From Kaiparowitsia implicata GSE-PSE-MK54-09C (lineage in GTDB: Bacteria; Cyanobacteriota; Cyanobacteriia; Elainellales; Elainellaceae): a stretch of DNA of 64,000 nt. Both the position numbers and the translations under genes were made by a program. Positions 22,117-31,435 of the stretch are shown here, piece by piece. The notes below the pieces were generated by a model that was not told where the DNA came from, did no database searches, and saw only the letters and a list, made by a program, of their open reading frames with translations. Within the stretch, counting starts at the first letter, position 1. Each line of letters starts with the position of its first letter. Location: NCBI GenBank assembly GCA_019359435.1, contig JAHHHI010000094.1:1-64000 (forward strand), read 5' to 3'.

Positions 22117-22908
22117 ATGCTCAACCGCCTTTCTCAGGGACATCTCAACGGACTTGATCTGTGCCCCCGCCGCTTTCAGCATGTGCATCTTGATCAATTG
22201 CTGTCGCCCACTGCACCCGAGCAGCAGCAGGCGCTAGACTGGGGCACGCGGTTTCACCTGCTGATGCAACAGCATGATCTGGGTTTGCCCGTGGAAACCA
22301 TTGAGCCTGCTGACCCCACGGTGCAAGCCTGCTTTCGCCAGTTTATGCAGACAGCACCCGAGGTGTTTGCGGTGCAGCCGGGGCAGGTGCGCCACAGCGA
22401 GCATCGCCGCACCCTAGAACTAGAGGGGGTCTTGCTCACTGCGGTGTATGACCTGCTGGTGCTGCACCCCGACCGCGCGCTGATTTATGACTGGAAGACC
22501 CACCTCACCCCCCAGTCGGCGATGCGGCTCGCGCAAGATTGGCAAACGCGGCTCTACTGCTTTGTCTTGGCAGAAACCAGCGCCTACCTGCCAGAGCAAA
22601 TTTCGTTTACCTATTGGTTTGTGCGGGCGCAAGCAGGGGGGGGTGCGCCCCGCCCCCAGCACCACACGCTGCCCTATTCCACCACGCAGCATGAGAAGAC
22701 TCGGCAGGCGCTCTCGCAGCGGTTGGCGCAGTTGAGTGAGGGGCTGGCAGGCTATCGCGAGGGGCGATCGCTCCCCCAAGTGCCCGAAGAACTGGGTCGG
22801 TGCGATCGCTGTCCCTTTGCGATTCGCTGCCGTCGGGGGGCATTTTCAGACGCTTCAGAAAGTGTCCTCATTCCCAACTTGGCCGATATCGCAGAAGTAG
22901 TACTGTAA
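22117..22908 (+). CDS. PD-(D/E)XK nuclease with AddB/Cas4-type cysteine set
   Basis: A 263-residue nuclease. The core residues are Asp112 (AVYDLLV) and Asp125-Trp-Lys127 (IYDWKTH), with WQTRLYCFVLAE as the following helix. Cys16 near the N-terminus and Cys229, Cys232 and Cys238 at the C-terminus form the C...CxxCx5C set. In AddB and Cas4-like nucleases this set binds a [4Fe-4S] cluster that closes the domain. These enzymes degrade single-stranded DNA ends. No cas, addA or recombination gene is adjacent, so it is probably a general repair nuclease. The cluster is inferred from cysteine spacing only. GH3 follows in the same direction. Confidence 0.8.
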   Translation: MLNRLSQGHLNGLDLCPRRFQHVHLDQLLSPTAPEQQQALDWGTRFHLLMQQHDLGLPVETIEPADPTVQACFRQFMQTAPEVFAVQPGQVRHSEHRRTLELEGVLLTAVYDLLVLHPDRALIYDWKTHLTPQSAMRLAQDWQTRLYCFVLAETSAYLPEQISFTYWFVRAQAGGGAPRPQHHTLPYSTTQHEKTRQALSQRLAQLSEGLAGYREGRSLPQVPEELGRCDRCPFAIRCRRGAFSDASESVLIPNLADIAEVVL

Positions 22909-22985
22909 TCGGGGCTGATCCTCAGCTTGGGGAATCGGTCGATTCTATCCGATTCATCACCTGTACGTTTCGTTGGGTCTCTATC

Positions 22986-24692
22986 ATGGCTGATAGCCTT
23001 GCTCTTTCCGTGGTTGCTGCCTATGCGTCCTATGCCAGACGTCGCTTGCTGCACAAAACTCGCCAAGTCGCAGCGACGCAAGAACAATTTTTGCTGCGGC
23101 TGTTGCGGGCGCATGACTCAACAGAACTGGGACAAACCTTTGGCCTTTCCACGGTGAATACCGTCGATGAGTTTCGCTGTCAGGTGCCGATCAAGCCCTA
23201 TAGCTTCTATGCGCCCTATACCGAGCGGATCGCCCAAGGCGAGGCCAATGTTCTCACGCCAGATCCGGTGAACTACATCAACCTCACCAGCGGTTCCACA
23301 GGCAACAAAAAGCAGGTGCCGGTCACGCGTCGATTTCAGCGCAGTTTGCGGCGAGCTGACTTGGCCAGCATTGGTTGTGCGATCGCCGCGTTGAACCAGC
23401 GCGATCGCCCCTTTGGCAAAGCCCTGCTCACCAACTGCGCCAAGCACCAGGGCCGCACCGAGGCTGGCATTGCCTATGGCCCGGTTAGCGTGGGCAGCAT
23501 TCGCCAGGGCAAGCGCTTGGTCGATCAGGTGTTTACCTTGCCGTTCGACGCGCTCGAAATTGGCGACACCGATTCTCGCCACTATGTCTGCTTGCTCTAC
23601 GCCCTGCGCAATCCCCACCTGCGCGGCTGGGTCGCCAATTTCCCCATGTTGATTCTGCGCACCTGCGGCTATTTAGAGCAGTATGGCGATGCCCTGGTCA
23701 AAGACCTCGCAGAGGGCACCTTGGCCCCCTGGCTAGACCTAGAGCCCGCCATTCGCCAGCGGCTAGAGCAGCGGTGGACTGCGGCCCCTGAGCGGGCAGC
23801 CCAGCTTCAGGCGATTCTGCGGCGCGAGGGTCGCCTGAAGCCAAAAACGGCCTGGCAGTTAAGCTATATCACCACGGCGCGGGGTGGCACCTCCGAGTTT
23901 TATCTGCAGCGGTTTGCCGACTATTTTGGCGATGTGCCGGTGTTTGGCGGTGTGTATGGCACAGCAGAGGCGACCTTCAGCGTGTGTCCTGATTTTGACT
24001 ATGACGGCGGCATTCTCGCCTTAGAAAGCGGCTTTTTTGAATTTGTGCCCCAGCACCAATGGCAGGAAGAACAGCCTCAAACCCTGCTGCCAACCGAACT
24101 CACGGTGGGCGATCGCTACCGAGTTTTAGTCACGAGCTATAGCGGCTTCTATCGTTACGACATTGGCGATGTGGTGGAAGTCGTGGGCTACCACGAGCAA
24201 GCGCCGCTCATTGTCTTTCGACATCGCCAGGGCGGGCTACTGTCTGCCACCACCGAAAAAACGACAGAGTTTCACGTCACCCAAGTCATGCAGCGGCTGC
24301 AAGCGGAGTTTGGCATTGGGCTAGATGATTTTTGCGTCACCCTATCGGCAGATGAGTTTCCGGCGCGCTATCTGGTTAACATTGAGCTGGCGGCGGGCTA
24401 TTATCTCGGCCAGCCGCAGGCCTTTTTGCAGCGGTTTGAGTATTGGCTGACGCAGGTAAACAATCCCTATGGCACCGTCCGGCAAAGTCAGGTGCCGCCG
24501 CCTCGGCTGCGAGTGTTAGCACCCCAGAGCTTTGCCCAGGTGCGCCAGCGGCAGATCGATCGGGGCATGTTCGACTCGCAGCTAAAAATTCCCCACATCA
24601 GCGAAGACCGTCAGTTTCTGGCAGGGCTGCCTGTGCAGCTAGAGGTGGCGCTGCAAGCCTCTGCTAATTCGGAACCATCAGCGGCGCGCTAA
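22986..24692 (+). CDS. GH3-family acyl-acid-amido synthetase-like protein
   Basis: A 568-residue GH3 auxin-responsive-promoter family protein. Motifs are YINLTSGSTGNKKQVPVT (ATP/phosphate loop), then FGGVYGTAEATFS, YRVLVTSYSGFYRYDIGDVVEVVG and the C-terminal HxxQGGLLSATTEKTTE segment. Plant GH3 enzymes adenylate an acid such as indole-acetate or jasmonate and conjugate it to amino acids. Bacterial substrates are mostly unknown. The first ATG giving the conserved MADSLALSVVAAYASYARRRL start is 22986; an open frame extending upstream to 22800 overlaps the nuclease gene and is not conserved. Confidence 0.9.
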   Translation: MADSLALSVVAAYASYARRRLLHKTRQVAATQEQFLLRLLRAHDSTELGQTFGLSTVNTVDEFRCQVPIKPYSFYAPYTERIAQGEANVLTPDPVNYINLTSGSTGNKKQVPVTRRFQRSLRRADLASIGCAIAALNQRDRPFGKALLTNCAKHQGRTEAGIAYGPVSVGSIRQGKRLVDQVFTLPFDALEIGDTDSRHYVCLLYALRNPHLRGWVANFPMLILRTCGYLEQYGDALVKDLAEGTLAPWLDLEPAIRQRLEQRWTAAPERAAQLQAILRREGRLKPKTAWQLSYITTARGGTSEFYLQRFADYFGDVPVFGGVYGTAEATFSVCPDFDYDGGILALESGFFEFVPQHQWQEEQPQTLLPTELTVGDRYRVLVTSYSGFYRYDIGDVVEVVGYHEQAPLIVFRHRQGGLLSATTEKTTEFHVTQVMQRLQAEFGIGLDDFCVTLSADEFPARYLVNIELAAGYYLGQPQAFLQRFEYWLTQVNNPYGTVRQSQVPPPRLRVLAPQSFAQVRQRQIDRGMFDSQLKIPHISEDRQFLAGLPVQLEVALQASANSEPSAAR

Positions 24693-27214: not shown

Positions 27215-27397
27215 GAAGCGATAACGAGCCTGGTGAGGCTACGTGGCACCCAATCTGAACTGCGATTGACTCAAGATTGGGTGCCGCAAGAGGGTTAAGT
27301 TTTGAACTATCCTCTGCGGATTTGTGCGATCGCTGGCGTAACGTGAGACAAGCCTCTCATACGCTGGAGTTTGGGTCTGATGCTGCCGCAGGTTTTG

Positions 27398-30300
27398 ATG
27401 AGTCGTTGGATCAGTCAACGGAGCGATCGCCCACCCACGAACTCTCCCAGTGGCGCAAGTTGCTGGCGCATGGCGCTGCTCCTGATGGCGAGTGGGCTGG
27501 TCGGCAGCCTGATCAACGCCTCATCTGCGCTAGCCCAGTCCATCACCCCAGCAGCAGACGGGACTGGTAGCACCGTCACCCAGTCTGGCAACGACTACAC
27601 CCTAACCGGGGGCAGCAGGTCTCGCAACGGCGACAACCTGTTCCACAGCTTTGAGCGGTTTGGCATCAGCGCCAACGAAGTGGCGACCTTTCAAACCAAT
27701 CCAGCGCTACAGCGCATTCTGACGCGAGTGACGGGGGGCGATGCCTCCATTATTGACGGGCTGCTGCGGGTGTCTGGCAGCACTGCCGATCTGTATTTTA
27801 TGAACCCAGCGGGGGTGGTGTTTGGGGCAAACGCCCGGCTCGATATTCCAGCCTCATTTTTTGCCACCACGGCCACGGGCATCGGGTTTAATAGCGGCTG
27901 GTTTAACGCCGTGGGCACTGCTCCCTATGCGGATCTGACGGGTGCTCCTACTAATTTTGCCTTTAGCCTAGCGGAGCCTGCCGCCTTGGTCAATGCCGGA
28001 TCGCTGACGGTGGGGGCGGGGCACTCTCTCACGCTGCTGGGCGGCACGGTCATCAACACGGGAGACCTGACTGCACCGGGGGGGCGCATTACCCTAGCAG
28101 CAGTGCCCGGAGAAACGCTCGTGCGGCTGAGTCATGCCGGGAGCTTGCTCAGCCTGGAATTTGAACCCATTGCAGCGACTGATGCAGCGACCGAGCCACC
28201 CAGCATTACGCCGCTGTCGCTGCCCGTGCTGTTGACGGGCGGCTCGGTCACGAGCGCCACAGGACTGACGGTTCATGCTGATGGCTCGGTGCGGCTGGTG
28301 GGGTCGGGGTTGCAGATTCCTGCTGCGGGCGGCACAGCGATTGTGTCGGGCGGGATCAATGCCTCGGCCTCTAGCGCTGCCGGGCAGGGAGTGCCAGAAA
28401 TTACGGTGGTGGGCGATCGCCTCGCCCTTTCCCAAACGACGCTCAACGCCAGCGGCCCCAGCGGCGGCACTGTGCGCATTGGTGGCGACGAGCGAGGGCG
28501 CGGCCCACTGCCCACCGCCCACCGCACCATTGTAGATGCCAGTTCAAGCATCAGCGCCAGCGGCACCAACGGCGCAGGCGGGCGCGTCATCCTCTGGGCA
28601 GAGGACTTAACCCGGTTTGACGGCAGCATTCAGGCGCAGGGGGTTGGCGGCGATGGCGGGTTTGTAGAAGTGTCAGGCCGACTCATCCTCAACTTTAACG
28701 GTCAGGTGAATGTATCGGCGCTGGATGGCGCCATGGGCACGCTGCTGCTTGATCCCGAAAATATCATCATCTCCAATGCAGAGAGTTCACCGGGGGTAGA
28801 TGGAAGCCTGCCCACCATCCTAGTAGACGACTTTCCGGGTGAAACCATCACCATCAATGCCACCACCCTGTCGTCTCAGACGGGCAACCTCATCCTCGAA
28901 GCCACGAATGATATTACCGTTGATCCCAGCATCGGCAGCCTCTTCTTTTTGGGGTCACTGGCAGGGCTAAATTCTGTCACCTTTACGGCTGATGCCGACA
29001 GCAATGGGGCTGGGGCATTTGTGTCTCCAGTAGATATCTCCACCACAGGGGCAGATATCACTATTTCAGGGGCCAGCATTACCACCCAAACGTTAGACAC
29101 CGTCGGCAGTACGGTCGATGCGGGTGGCAGTGTTACGCTGTCTGCGCTCAACGACATCACGGTCGGCAGCATTCTGACCAATGACTTTAGTCTTTCAGGT
29201 GGCACTGCGGGTGCCGTCACGATCGTGAGCACGGCAGGGACTGTGACAGCAGATGCTATCGAGGCTATCTCCTTTGATGGCGCTGGCGGCACTGTCGTGA
29301 TTCAGGGCGATTTGGTGCGTATTCTCAGCACCAATGGGTTTGGGGAAAATGCGGAAAGCATTGATGTGTCTGGTCTGACACCGGGAACCGTGAGCATCAC
29401 CCAGGCGGGAGGCCCCCTTAATATCCCGTTTTTGGTGGGAACCGGAGATGGGGCTGTGGAAAACGGCACCTTTGGCGATATTTCAACGGGCGCTAGCGTG
29501 CTGGAAACTGGCACGTTTCCCGTCTTGCCTGCCGGTGGGATCGCCGCGCTGCCTGGGGAACCCATTGGGATCACGATTACGTCGGTCAATCAAGCCCCGG
29601 TGATTGTGGGGGGCAGTCTGCTATCCACGGGGGTGGATGAGCCGCTGGTGATTGCAGTGGGTGATTTGGGCATCACAGTCACCGATGCCGATAATGACGT
29701 CACGATTGTGGAGATTGGGGCGATCGCCCCGGGCGCACTCCTCACGCGGGGTGGCGTTCCCCTTACGTCGGGAGACACGGTCTTGCTGACGGATGTGCTG
29801 GAGTTTACCCCACCGACTAGCGCGACAGGGGATGTGGTGGCCTTTACGCTAGTCGCTAGCGATCTAGCTAACAATGAGCCGGTGCTGGCGTCCTCTGCCC
29901 CAGCTCCGATTACCGTTAGCCTGCAGCCTGAGCCGATCGATCCCGTTGATCCAATTGATCCCATCGACCCGATAGACCCTATCGATCCGGTAGACCCGAT
30001 AGACCCCGTAGATCCGATTGATCCCATCGATCCAGTAGACCCGATAGATCCAGTCAATCCGGTAGACCCGACCGATCCTATCAGTGGTTTTGAGCTAGAG
30101 ATTACTGATCCCCTGGTCGATCGCCCCGTTACCGATCCGCCACCGATTCTGAACCCACCCGCAACGGATCGCCTGCTTGACCCCCGCATCTCGCAACTAG
30201 AAGAGCGGCTGAATACCGACTTCTCGGCGATCGCCACTGCCGCATCAGTCCGCACGCTAGATGATGGACGGGCGATCGCCCAGCAGATTGAAGACGAAAC

Positions 30301-31435
30301 CGGGGTAAAACCGGCCTTTGTCTATCTCAGCTTTGTGCCTGCTGGGGGCGATTTGCTCAGCACCGTGCTGATCCCTGCAGAGACCGATCAACTGGAACTG
30401 GTGGTGGTGACGGCGCAAGGGGATCTCATTCGCCGCCGCATTCCCGACGCTACGCGGGCTCACGTGATGGCGATCGCCCAAGAATTCCGCCTACAGATTA
30501 CCGATCCCCGCAATGTGCGCAACACCCGCTACCTGCCCTCAGCTCAGCAGCTCTATGGTTGGATGATCGCCCCCATTCTGGCGGATCTCGTCGCGCTAGA
30601 CATCGATAACCTAGTGTTTCTGCCCGAAGCGGGGCTGCGATCGCTTCCCTTTGCTGCCCTGCATGACGGGCAACAGTTCATCATCGAGCAGTTCAGTATC
30701 GGGCTGATGCCCAGCCTTAGCCTCACCGACACTCGCTATGTTGATGTGCGCAATGCTCAGGTGCTCGCCATGGGCATTGCGGCCAGCACCCAGGGGCAAC
30801 TGCCGCTCCCGGCTGTGCCCGTAGAACTCAACACCTTGGCACTCAAGCTTTGGACAGGGCGCATTTTCCTCGATGCCACCAGCACCCTCGACAATCTGAA
30901 AGCGGTGCGCCAGCAACAGCCCTTCGGCATCATCCATCTGGCAACTCACGCCGACTTTGTGGCAGGAAACCTGAGCGATGCCTATATTCAGCTCTGGAAC
31001 GATCGGCTGCGGCTGGATCAGTTGCAGCAGCTCGGCTGGAACGATCCCCCCGTGGAATTGCTGGTGCTGAGCGCCTGCCGCACTGCTTTGGGGGATGAGC
31101 AAGCCGAGTTGGGCTTTGCAGGACTAGCAGTGCAAGCTGGGGTCAAGTCTGCCATTGCCAGCCTGTGGTATGTCAGCGATGCCGCCACGGCGGCCCTCAT
31201 GACGCGCCTTTACGATAGCCTCCGTACTGCCCCGATTAAAGCCGAGGCCCTGCGTCAGGCACAGCTTGCCATGGCGCGCGGCGAGGTCAGTGTAGATGAA
31301 ACGGGGCGACTGCTGGGACTGGGCGAGGTGGGCAGCACCCTCCTCCCGGCTGAGAGCACCCGAGATGTGCTGGGCCAAACCCTCGCGCATCCTTACTATT
31401 GGGCGGCGTTTACCATGATTGGCAACCCTTGGTAA
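27398..31435 (+). CDS. secreted TPS-domain protein fused to a CHAT protease
   Basis: A 1345-residue exoprotein. The N-terminus has a signal peptide (MALLLMASGLVGSLINASSALAQ region) followed by a filamentous-haemagglutinin TPS domain to about residue 170 (DLYFMNPAGVVFGANARLD). Beta-helix-like repeats and a cadherin-like stretch (about 730-845) come next. A 16-fold XDP proline-aspartate hinge (847-894) leads to a C-terminal CHAT caspase-like domain from about 1010. The catalytic dyad is visible: His1184 in IIHLATHADF and Cys1227 in LVLSACRTALGD. The layout predicts secretion by a TpsB/Omp85-type transporter, but no such gene is in the window. The start is uncertain; ATG 27398 has AGG five bases ahead. 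Confidence 0.8.
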   Translation: MSRWISQRSDRPPTNSPSGASCWRMALLLMASGLVGSLINASSALAQSITPAADGTGSTVTQSGNDYTLTGGSRSRNGDNLFHSFERFGISANEVATFQTNPALQRILTRVTGGDASIIDGLLRVSGSTADLYFMNPAGVVFGANARLDIPASFFATTATGIGFNSGWFNAVGTAPYADLTGAPTNFAFSLAEPAALVNAGSLTVGAGHSLTLLGGTVINTGDLTAPGGRITLAAVPGETLVRLSHAGSLLSLEFEPIAATDAATEPPSITPLSLPVLLTGGSVTSATGLTVHADGSVRLVGSGLQIPAAGGTAIVSGGINASASSAAGQGVPEITVVGDRLALSQTTLNASGPSGGTVRIGGDERGRGPLPTAHRTIVDASSSISASGTNGAGGRVILWAEDLTRFDGSIQAQGVGGDGGFVEVSGRLILNFNGQVNVSALDGAMGTLLLDPENIIISNAESSPGVDGSLPTILVDDFPGETITINATTLSSQTGNLILEATNDITVDPSIGSLFFLGSLAGLNSVTFTADADSNGAGAFVSPVDISTTGADITISGASITTQTLDTVGSTVDAGGSVTLSALNDITVGSILTNDFSLSGGTAGAVTIVSTAGTVTADAIEAISFDGAGGTVVIQGDLVRILSTNGFGENAESIDVSGLTPGTVSITQAGGPLNIPFLVGTGDGAVENGTFGDISTGASVLETGTFPVLPAGGIAALPGEPIGITITSVNQAPVIVGGSLLSTGVDEPLVIAVGDLGITVTDADNDVTIVEIGAIAPGALLTRGGVPLTSGDTVLLTDVLEFTPPTSATGDVVAFTLVASDLANNEPVLASSAPAPITVSLQPEPIDPVDPIDPIDPIDPIDPVDPIDPVDPIDPIDPVDPIDPVNPVDPTDPISGFELEITDPLVDRPVTDPPPILNPPATDRLLDPRISQLEERLNTDFSAIATAASVRTLDDGRAIAQQIEDETGVKPAFVYLSFVPAGGDLLSTVLIPAETDQLELVVVTAQGDLIRRRIPDATRAHVMAIAQEFRLQITDPRNVRNTRYLPSAQQLYGWMIAPILADLVALDIDNLVFLPEAGLRSLPFAALHDGQQFIIEQFSIGLMPSLSLTDTRYVDVRNAQVLAMGIAASTQGQLPLPAVPVELNTLALKLWTGRIFLDATSTLDNLKAVRQQQPFGIIHLATHADFVAGNLSDAYIQLWNDRLRLDQLQQLGWNDPPVELLVLSACRTALGDEQAELGFAGLAVQAGVKSAIASLWYVSDAATAALMTRLYDSLRTAPIKAEALRQAQLAMARGEVSVDETGRLLGLGEVGSTLLPAESTRDVLGQTLAHPYYWAAFTMIGNPW
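29936..30079 (+). repeat. 9-bp tandem repeat encoding XDP hinge
   Basis: Sixteen in-frame 9-bp units encode (I/V/T)DP, with one VNP. Third-position variation is high although the protein repeat is nearly invariant, so purifying selection rather than recent expansion appears to keep it. It separates the secreted passenger from the CHAT domain. Confidence 0.9.

Follow-up and report, generated by a model that had tools for sequence, protein, structure and literature searches.

In a 64,000-nucleotide stretch of the genome of Kaiparowitsia implicata GSE-PSE-MK54-09C (contig JAHHHI010000094.1, positions 1 to 64,000; hereafter the window), one gene joins a two-partner secretion (TPS) domain at the N-terminus to a CHAT domain at the C-terminus. 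Fused TPS-CHAT proteins are common in Cyanobacteria, and they carry the CHAT domain at the place where unfused TPS proteins have a cysteine-pair anchor. Our favoured, still tentative reading is that the window protein is an exoprotein whose anchor has been replaced by a CHAT cysteine protease, likely located at the periplasmic mouth of the TpsB transporter and controlling retention or release. Its architecture, intact dyad and predicted fold, its recurrence and gene linkage, and the anchor swap were all established by computation.

Architecture and distribution of TPS-CHAT proteins

The gene is a single intact frame with an ATG start, and a TTG at 27371 is a possible alternative start that would add nine residues (Table 1). 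The TPS domain matches Pfam PF05860 (E = 9.7e-41, 140.8 bits vs. a cut-off of 33.5) and TIGR01901 (E = 5.5e-22) and resembles HMW1 and EtpA both by sequence and by fold, and the C-terminal part matches the Pfam CHAT family PF12770 (E = 6.2e-68, 229.8 bits vs. a cut-off of 24). An AlphaFold model of residues 40-880 consists mostly of strands (mean pLDDT 80.1 for the best of five models, 72.2 to 55.3 for the others), and its top PDB matches are EtpA, the HMW1 secretion domain, and HxuA. Frame, Pfam matches, and models agree with the initial annotation of this DNA, which had described a TPS domain, beta repeats, a hinge, and a C-terminal CHAT domain in one protein. The hinge of 48 residues does comprise the 16 three-residue units that had been counted, but only 15 of them are of the xDP type, the remaining one being VNP.

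Among 292 cyanobacterial genomes, including that of the window, 95 genomes from 59 of the 116 genera matched the window protein at E <= 1e-20, a match to either domain being counted and the two best candidates per genome being scored. Among the listed rows, 40 regions from 33 other genomes were selected because they had long frames matching both TPS and CHAT; 39 of these regions contain a fused frame (40 fused frames altogether), and in the remaining one (L103) the gene is split. Named genomes were also scanned; the 80 best of 490 relatives are all cyanobacterial by title (Nostoc, Tolypothrix, Oscillatoria, Okeania, Microcoleus, and others), and the choice of the best 80 may be why other phyla are absent among them. 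A single frame bearing both domains is present in 51 of these 80 loci (56 frames, a few of them cut by contig ends). The fused set used below (n = 97) consists of these 40 and 56 frames and the window protein; it was gathered by TPS and CHAT matches and includes near-duplicates. The search for homologues of the same architecture proposed in the initial annotation has yielded 97 single-frame proteins, and the idea of a unique gene fusion was rejected since the architecture recurs across Cyanobacteria. A search of plasmid records returned no place covering 80% of the query.

Nine loci among the best 80 of the 490 named ones were classed as having a CHAT gene with a separate TPS gene. We mostly rejected this class as a natural two-gene form, seven of the nine loci as well as L103 looking broken or shifted by eye. 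The TPS and CHAT parts of L154, L169, L182, L193, and L103 lie in separate frames through an overlap or a stop, which could be due to sequencing errors, decay, or switching in repeats.

A further variant is seen in 16 of the 97 fused proteins, many of them from Nostoc and its kin, which begin with an in-frame family 2 glycosyltransferase-like stretch before the TPS domain (identified by text match, with Pfam run only on L083 6709-12177 and L117 5918-11062). HMW1 systems, in contrast, are described as having a separate cytoplasmic glycosyltransferase for the adhesin (PMC5422565).

Evidence for export

Taken together, the sequence features of the window protein and its relatives suggest that it is very probably exported. 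Homologues in genomes without TpsB, which the initial annotation had named as the contrary outcome, did not turn up: all 34 genomes supplying fused genes (33 others and the window's own) contain a TpsB match at 1e-22 or better; for comparison, any TpsB match at E <= 0.001 is present in 236 of the 292 genomes. Linkage of tpsB to tpsA is usual, not obligatory. Eighteen of the 97 fused genes have a TpsB gene no more than 4 kb away, often in divergent orientation, as in Nostoc, with 13 of its 19 placements being upstream on the opposite strand. No tpsB was found among the nine neighbouring genes scanned or elsewhere on the window's contig, and the three TpsB genes of this genome are all on other contigs.

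The distribution of cysteines also points to an extracytoplasmic location. Between the TPS and CHAT domains, non-catalytic cysteines are lacking in 49 of the 97 fused proteins, even in number in 44, and odd in four, while control open reading frames (ORFs) with one to six cysteines have even numbers in 261 cases and odd numbers in 207. Where exactly two cysteines are present, they lie within 11 residues of each other in 38 of 39 fused proteins vs. 18 of 137 control ORFs, as would be expected of disulfide loops formed in an oxidising compartment. The positions of the pairs vary along the fused chains; the Nostoc group shares a common motif, so that the paired cases are not independent. A signal-like segment precedes the TPS domain in 86 of 95 fused proteins according to a coarse score that also fires at the N-terminus of 232 of 659 control ORFs, and the hydrophobic N-terminal segment of the window protein (Table 1) is called by this simple score only.

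Two papers touch on export. The peptide SLSLLGGTVV, detected by liquid chromatography-mass spectrometry in a water extract, is listed for a Nostoc 'CHAT domain-containing protein' in PMC9895726. SLSLLGGTV is present in four TPS-carrying frames of our set, but this is one weak peptide. The text of a paper on the exoproteome of Anabaena PCC 7120 contains neither 'agglutinin' nor 'CHAT' nor 'caspase' and neither supports nor refutes export (PMC4390845).

The CHAT domain retains a His/Cys dyad and has a predicted caspase-like fold

CHAT proteases are best known as switches that act inside cells. In the window protein, His1184 lies within the motif HLATHADF and Cys1227 within LSACRTAL, exactly where the initial annotation had placed an apparently intact pair. 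Both residues are kept in all 97 fused CHAT domains, so that catalysis looks selected, and in 50 of 53 unfused ones. No tail follows the CHAT domain in any of the 41 fused proteins measured. The domain contains no extra cysteine in 94 of the 97 fused and 36 of 49 unfused CHAT proteins.

Residues 896-1345 were modelled with a mean pLDDT of 90.5, and the model has the predicted CHAT/separase fold, matching the Craspase TPR-CHAT protease (Z 28.0 over 330 residues, 3.2 A), separase (Z 25.0), gingipain (Z 19.0), and the anti-sigma factor DdvA (Z 18.4). The matches to the Craspase protease, separase, and gingipain span not only CHAT itself but also the half of the module preceding it, and conservation among relatives climbs past approximately residue 926. 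A sequence profile identified no PDB chain at E <= 0.1. The TPR-CHAT protease Csx29 of Craspase (type III-E CRISPR) has the CHAT fold, including the pre-CHAT half, and the His/Cys dyad in common with the window protein, which differs in its predicted export, its lack of a TPR match, and the TPS domain in front.

In a tree of 147 CHAT domains (quick method, midpoint root), all 97 fused domains fall within one group of 132 rows (SH-aLRT 99), which also holds 24 unfused and 11 contig-cut CHATs, many of them short. The three proteins with a Pfam TPR match before CHAT (L033, L034, and L041) are placed outside this group. The nearest fused relative of the window protein is L078 (genome G011), from the same family, with 74% identity over the CHAT columns.

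CHAT in place of a cysteine-pair anchor

All eight intact unfused TPS proteins from the window's genome (n = 5) and from plasmids (n = 3) end in two cysteines, the last one 1-8 residues from the end and its partner 53-111 residues earlier; ten other rows of this comparison, none with a terminal cysteine pair, were excluded as contig-cut or broken frames. Twelve of 14 further unfused TPS proteins, from five near-complete genomes, have such a pair with the last cysteine 4-25 residues from the end, the exceptions being L207 (783 aa) and L210 (410 aa). Overall, 20 of 22 intact unfused cyanobacterial TPS proteins show this HMW1-like end. In HMW1 and HxuA, a C-terminal disulfide is described to lock the end of the protein in the TpsB pore on the periplasmic side (PMC5422565), and many cyanobacterial TpsB proteins are reported to be of the Hmw1B type (PMC4104836). 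CdrA is retained through a cysteine hook, and the periplasmic protease LapG sets it free (as summarised in PMC5422565, PMC7616799, and PMC11898600).

The fused proteins carry CHAT at the anchor's place. The window protein shares the TPS domain and beta-helix with HMW1, EtpA, and HxuA, its best sequence and fold matches, but it lacks an HMW1-type C-terminal cysteine pair, its only cysteines being at positions 22 (in the signal region) and 1227, has CHAT instead, and is encoded on a contig without tpsB.

Separate CHAT genes beside TPS genes

CHAT proteins that stand alone and begin with a signal-like segment are also frequent, and with fused proteins being widespread as well, the window protein is not the single unexpected case that the initial annotation had assumed. 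Two of the six TPS genes in the window's genome (on contigs C3 and C70) are directly followed by a CHAT gene whose product has a signal-like N-terminus and TPR matches. In the five near-complete genomes, CHAT is fused to 13 of the 27 TPS proteins. For five of the 14 unfused ones, an unfused CHAT gene is located no more than 6 kb away, compared with a random mean of 0.43 (2 of 2000 shuffles reached this count). By eye, signal-like N-termini are seen in the TPS-adjoining CHAT proteins of L202, L204, L205, L206, and L211, which also carry both catalytic motifs, and the same holds for the four CHATs that account for the five linked cases; L207 contains two more distant CHAT genes, one without the Cys pattern. 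On two Gloeothece plasmids, genes for CHASE2, a hypothetical protein, CHAT, one further protein, TPS, and a TpsB-like protein lie in a row, the TpsB-like gene belonging to the ShlB/FhaC family in one and being annotated as BamA/TamA family in the other. Genes for TpsB, CHAT, and TPS are also found together on a plasmid of Nostoc.

DUF928 genes (a BLAST group, four members of which were Pfam-checked) occur within 4 kb of 17 of the 97 fused genes, and CHASE2 genes are close to some of these DUF928 genes. DUF928 and CHASE2 form a putative cyanobacterial sensor module; in the five near-complete genomes, 12 of 24 DUF928 genes lie within 6 kb of CHASE2, compared with a random mean of 0.41 (a count that none of 2000 shuffles reached being 12). 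CHAT and CHASE2 also share one frame, with CHAT first, in G000 (the window's genome; C75:78807-80726), G011 (C1:169894-171912), and G027 (C1:2377229-2379013), the latter two with adjoining DUF928 genes. The CHAT domain of these frames is probably cytoplasmic and tied to an outside sensor. A dense cluster of ten CHAT matches within 40 kb, one of them with an in-frame stop, is found on contig C65 of the window's genome (49258-89253; L038-L040).

Proposed mechanism and alternative explanations

From sequence we infer export, protease activity, the periplasmic side, and the substrate, which would combine as follows. The TPS-CHAT protein would cross the inner membrane via Sec and then be threaded, starting with its N-terminus, through the pore of a TpsB whose gene lies elsewhere in the genome, with the beta-helix folding outside the cell. 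CHAT, translocated last, would stay extracytoplasmic, most likely at the periplasmic mouth of TpsB, which in other TPS proteins is the site of the disulfide anchor. In this position, it would hold the exoprotein and, when activated, cut it or sister TPS proteins, leading to their release. The fusion may thereby let the cell time the holding and release of surface proteins. Such release would be analogous to the freeing of CdrA by periplasmic LapG in Pseudomonas, as far as that system has been described, since a periplasmic protease would free a TPS adhesin in both; in the window protein, however, the adhesin would contain its own protease, one of the caspase fold, and there is no cysteine hook. 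LapG is a cysteine protease of a fold other than caspase.

A surface-displayed or shed exoprotease is the main, though less likely, rival of the anchor-replacing protease. Its CHAT domain would pass TpsB, be given reach by the hinge, and have matrix proteins, further adhesins, or food protein as its targets outside the cell. A precedent exists in LepA of Pseudomonas aeruginosa, a TPS exoprotein with a protease as its passenger (PMC5422565). The match of the C-terminal model to gingipain, a caspase-fold protease, and the low-complexity stretch, often Pro- or Gly-rich, ahead of CHAT in 51 of the 97 fused proteins also fit an exoprotease. Conversely, the partner CHATs encoded by separate genes lack a TPS domain and hence an evident route through TpsB, and the C-terminal anchor of HMW1-type TPS proteins is described as remaining periplasmic (PMC5422565). 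As the periplasm is the compartment common to the separate and fused forms, we prefer a periplasm-facing CHAT over a surface exoprotease.

A toxin resembling those of contact-dependent inhibition, with CHAT as the toxin domain directed against neighbours, appears improbable. The C-terminal position of CHAT would suit it, and polymorphic toxins of several export routes are described to contain caspase-like domains, either as peptidases for release or as the C-terminal toxin itself; as here, a caspase-fold domain then ends a large exported protein (Zhang et al. 2012, PMC3482391). However, in the accessible part of the same survey HINT is the only protease in the row for type V secretion systems, and none of these systems is given for Tox-Caspase. 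TPS-CHAT proteins further differ from polymorphic toxins in their type Vb export, in the constant CHAT domain of the 97 fused proteins, and in that no small gene (ORFs of at least 80 aa) recurs within 4 kb on the 3' side. The constancy of the C-terminus, including the missing tail, is to be read with the choice of the set by TPS and CHAT matches. The action on competitors suggested in the initial annotation is weakly supported, CHAT being constant and no immunity-like gene recurring, while its other suggestions, action on the protein itself or on the cell surface, may apply. Extracellular and even fratricidal roles of prokaryotic metacaspases are raised in another survey, the accessible text of which does not mention CHAT (PMC3501461).

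The extracytoplasmic CHAT might instead be a non-protease binding module that signals to CHASE2 sensors. The DUF928 and CHASE2 genes near some fused genes and the structural match to the anti-sigma factor DdvA would be in line with such a function, but the preservation of both catalytic residues in every fused protein and the lack of DUF928 or CHASE2 within 6 kb of the 13 fused genes in the five near-complete genomes make it unlikely. Least probable is a non-exported protein with a cytoplasmic CHAT like the CRISPR-associated CHAT proteases: the PDB matches named as CHAT proteins do come from CRISPR and SAVED systems, but the TPS domain, the linkage to TpsB, the paired cysteines, and the sister CHATs with signal-like N-termini all argue against it. 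A role as a defence protein has little in its favour, the sole PADLOC match being weak (BovA, E = 0.00098).

Several observations also weigh against the anchor-replacing protease that we favour. The linkage to TpsB, which the initial annotation had proposed to check, holds for a minority of the fused genes, 79 of 97 having no TpsB gene within 4 kb, in part because of contig ends. As the window protein itself has no cysteine pair, the disulfide argument rests on its relatives, and the signal-like segments were called by the coarse score described above. The lone catalytic cysteine of the fused CHAT domains is less telling since most unfused CHATs are alike in this respect. Hinge sequences are not conserved across the fused proteins, so that no conserved self-cleavage site is visible; self-cleavage in the DP hinge found no support, the hinges ranging from DP, EP, and TP to poly-P and Gly repeats. 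Of the three plasmid partner CHATs, L197 has neither the His nor the Cys pattern and L198 only the latter, and some partners may be inactive or too diverged for the patterns used. Finally, the absence of DUF928 near the 13 fused genes of the five genomes is the reason why the proposed mechanism is not built on DUF928.

More broadly, Cyanobacteria could possess an adhesin-release system of their own, in which periplasmic CHATs cut TPS proteins and are either built in (self-releasing) or separate, the separate form being a TPR-CHAT protein encoded beside anchored TPS proteins and CHASE2 sensors. We regard this joint claim as speculative and rather unlikely as a whole. If true, the caspase fold would gain a new bacterial job through a large, catalytically intact, exported, and surface-tied branch, and there would be a concrete way to approach how filamentous Cyanobacteria retain or lose their surface coat, with bearing on mats, blooms, and cell-cell contact. 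Both parts of the fusion are of known kinds, and existing annotations already place 'CHAT domain-containing' beside 'filamentous hemagglutinin N-terminal' proteins. No paper on the TPS-CHAT fusion was found by title or abstract start among the top-listed papers of an open-access library, which excludes most subscription papers. An early survey of the caspase fold may have noted exported CHAT proteins.

Features and neighbourhood of the window gene

Table 1. Features of the TPS-CHAT gene (positions in the window)
Feature	Positions	Strand	Basis
TPS-CHAT gene	27398..31435	+	open frame, 1345 aa; alternative TTG start 27371
Signal-peptide-like segment, residues 23-47	27464..27538	+	sequence; hydrophobic segment (simple score)
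TPS secretion domain, residues 55-256, NPAG motif	27560..28165	+	PF05860, TIGR01901; HMW1/EtpA likeness
Beta-helix stalk and further beta part, residues 257-846	28166..29935	+	AlphaFold model
DP-type repeat hinge, 16 units, ~residues 847-894	29936..30078	+	TRF array
Conserved pre-CHAT half of catalytic module, residues 926-1046	30173..30535	+	conservation; structure matches
CHAT domain, residues 1047-1343	30536..31426	+	PF12770; model of residues 896-1345
Codon of predicted catalytic His1184	30947..30949	+	kept in 97/97 fused proteins
Codon of predicted catalytic Cys1227	31076..31078	+	only Cys outside signal region; kept in 97/97 fused proteins

A gene for a CAP-domain protein (PF00188; 31447-32250, - strand) converges on the TPS-CHAT gene and ends 12 bp beyond it; none of the other fused genes fetched had a relative of it nearby. 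When the 36 ORFs of the window were compared with the fetched relatives, only two of them, apart from one ORF antisense to the TPS-CHAT gene itself, had a relative near a fused gene (a CobO-like gene, found in L114, and a methyltransferase, found in L180 and L084), and synteny gives no lead for the window copy. The window also encodes a GH3-family protein (22800-24692, + strand; PF03321, E = 3.8e-71), a family best known from plant hormone conjugation.

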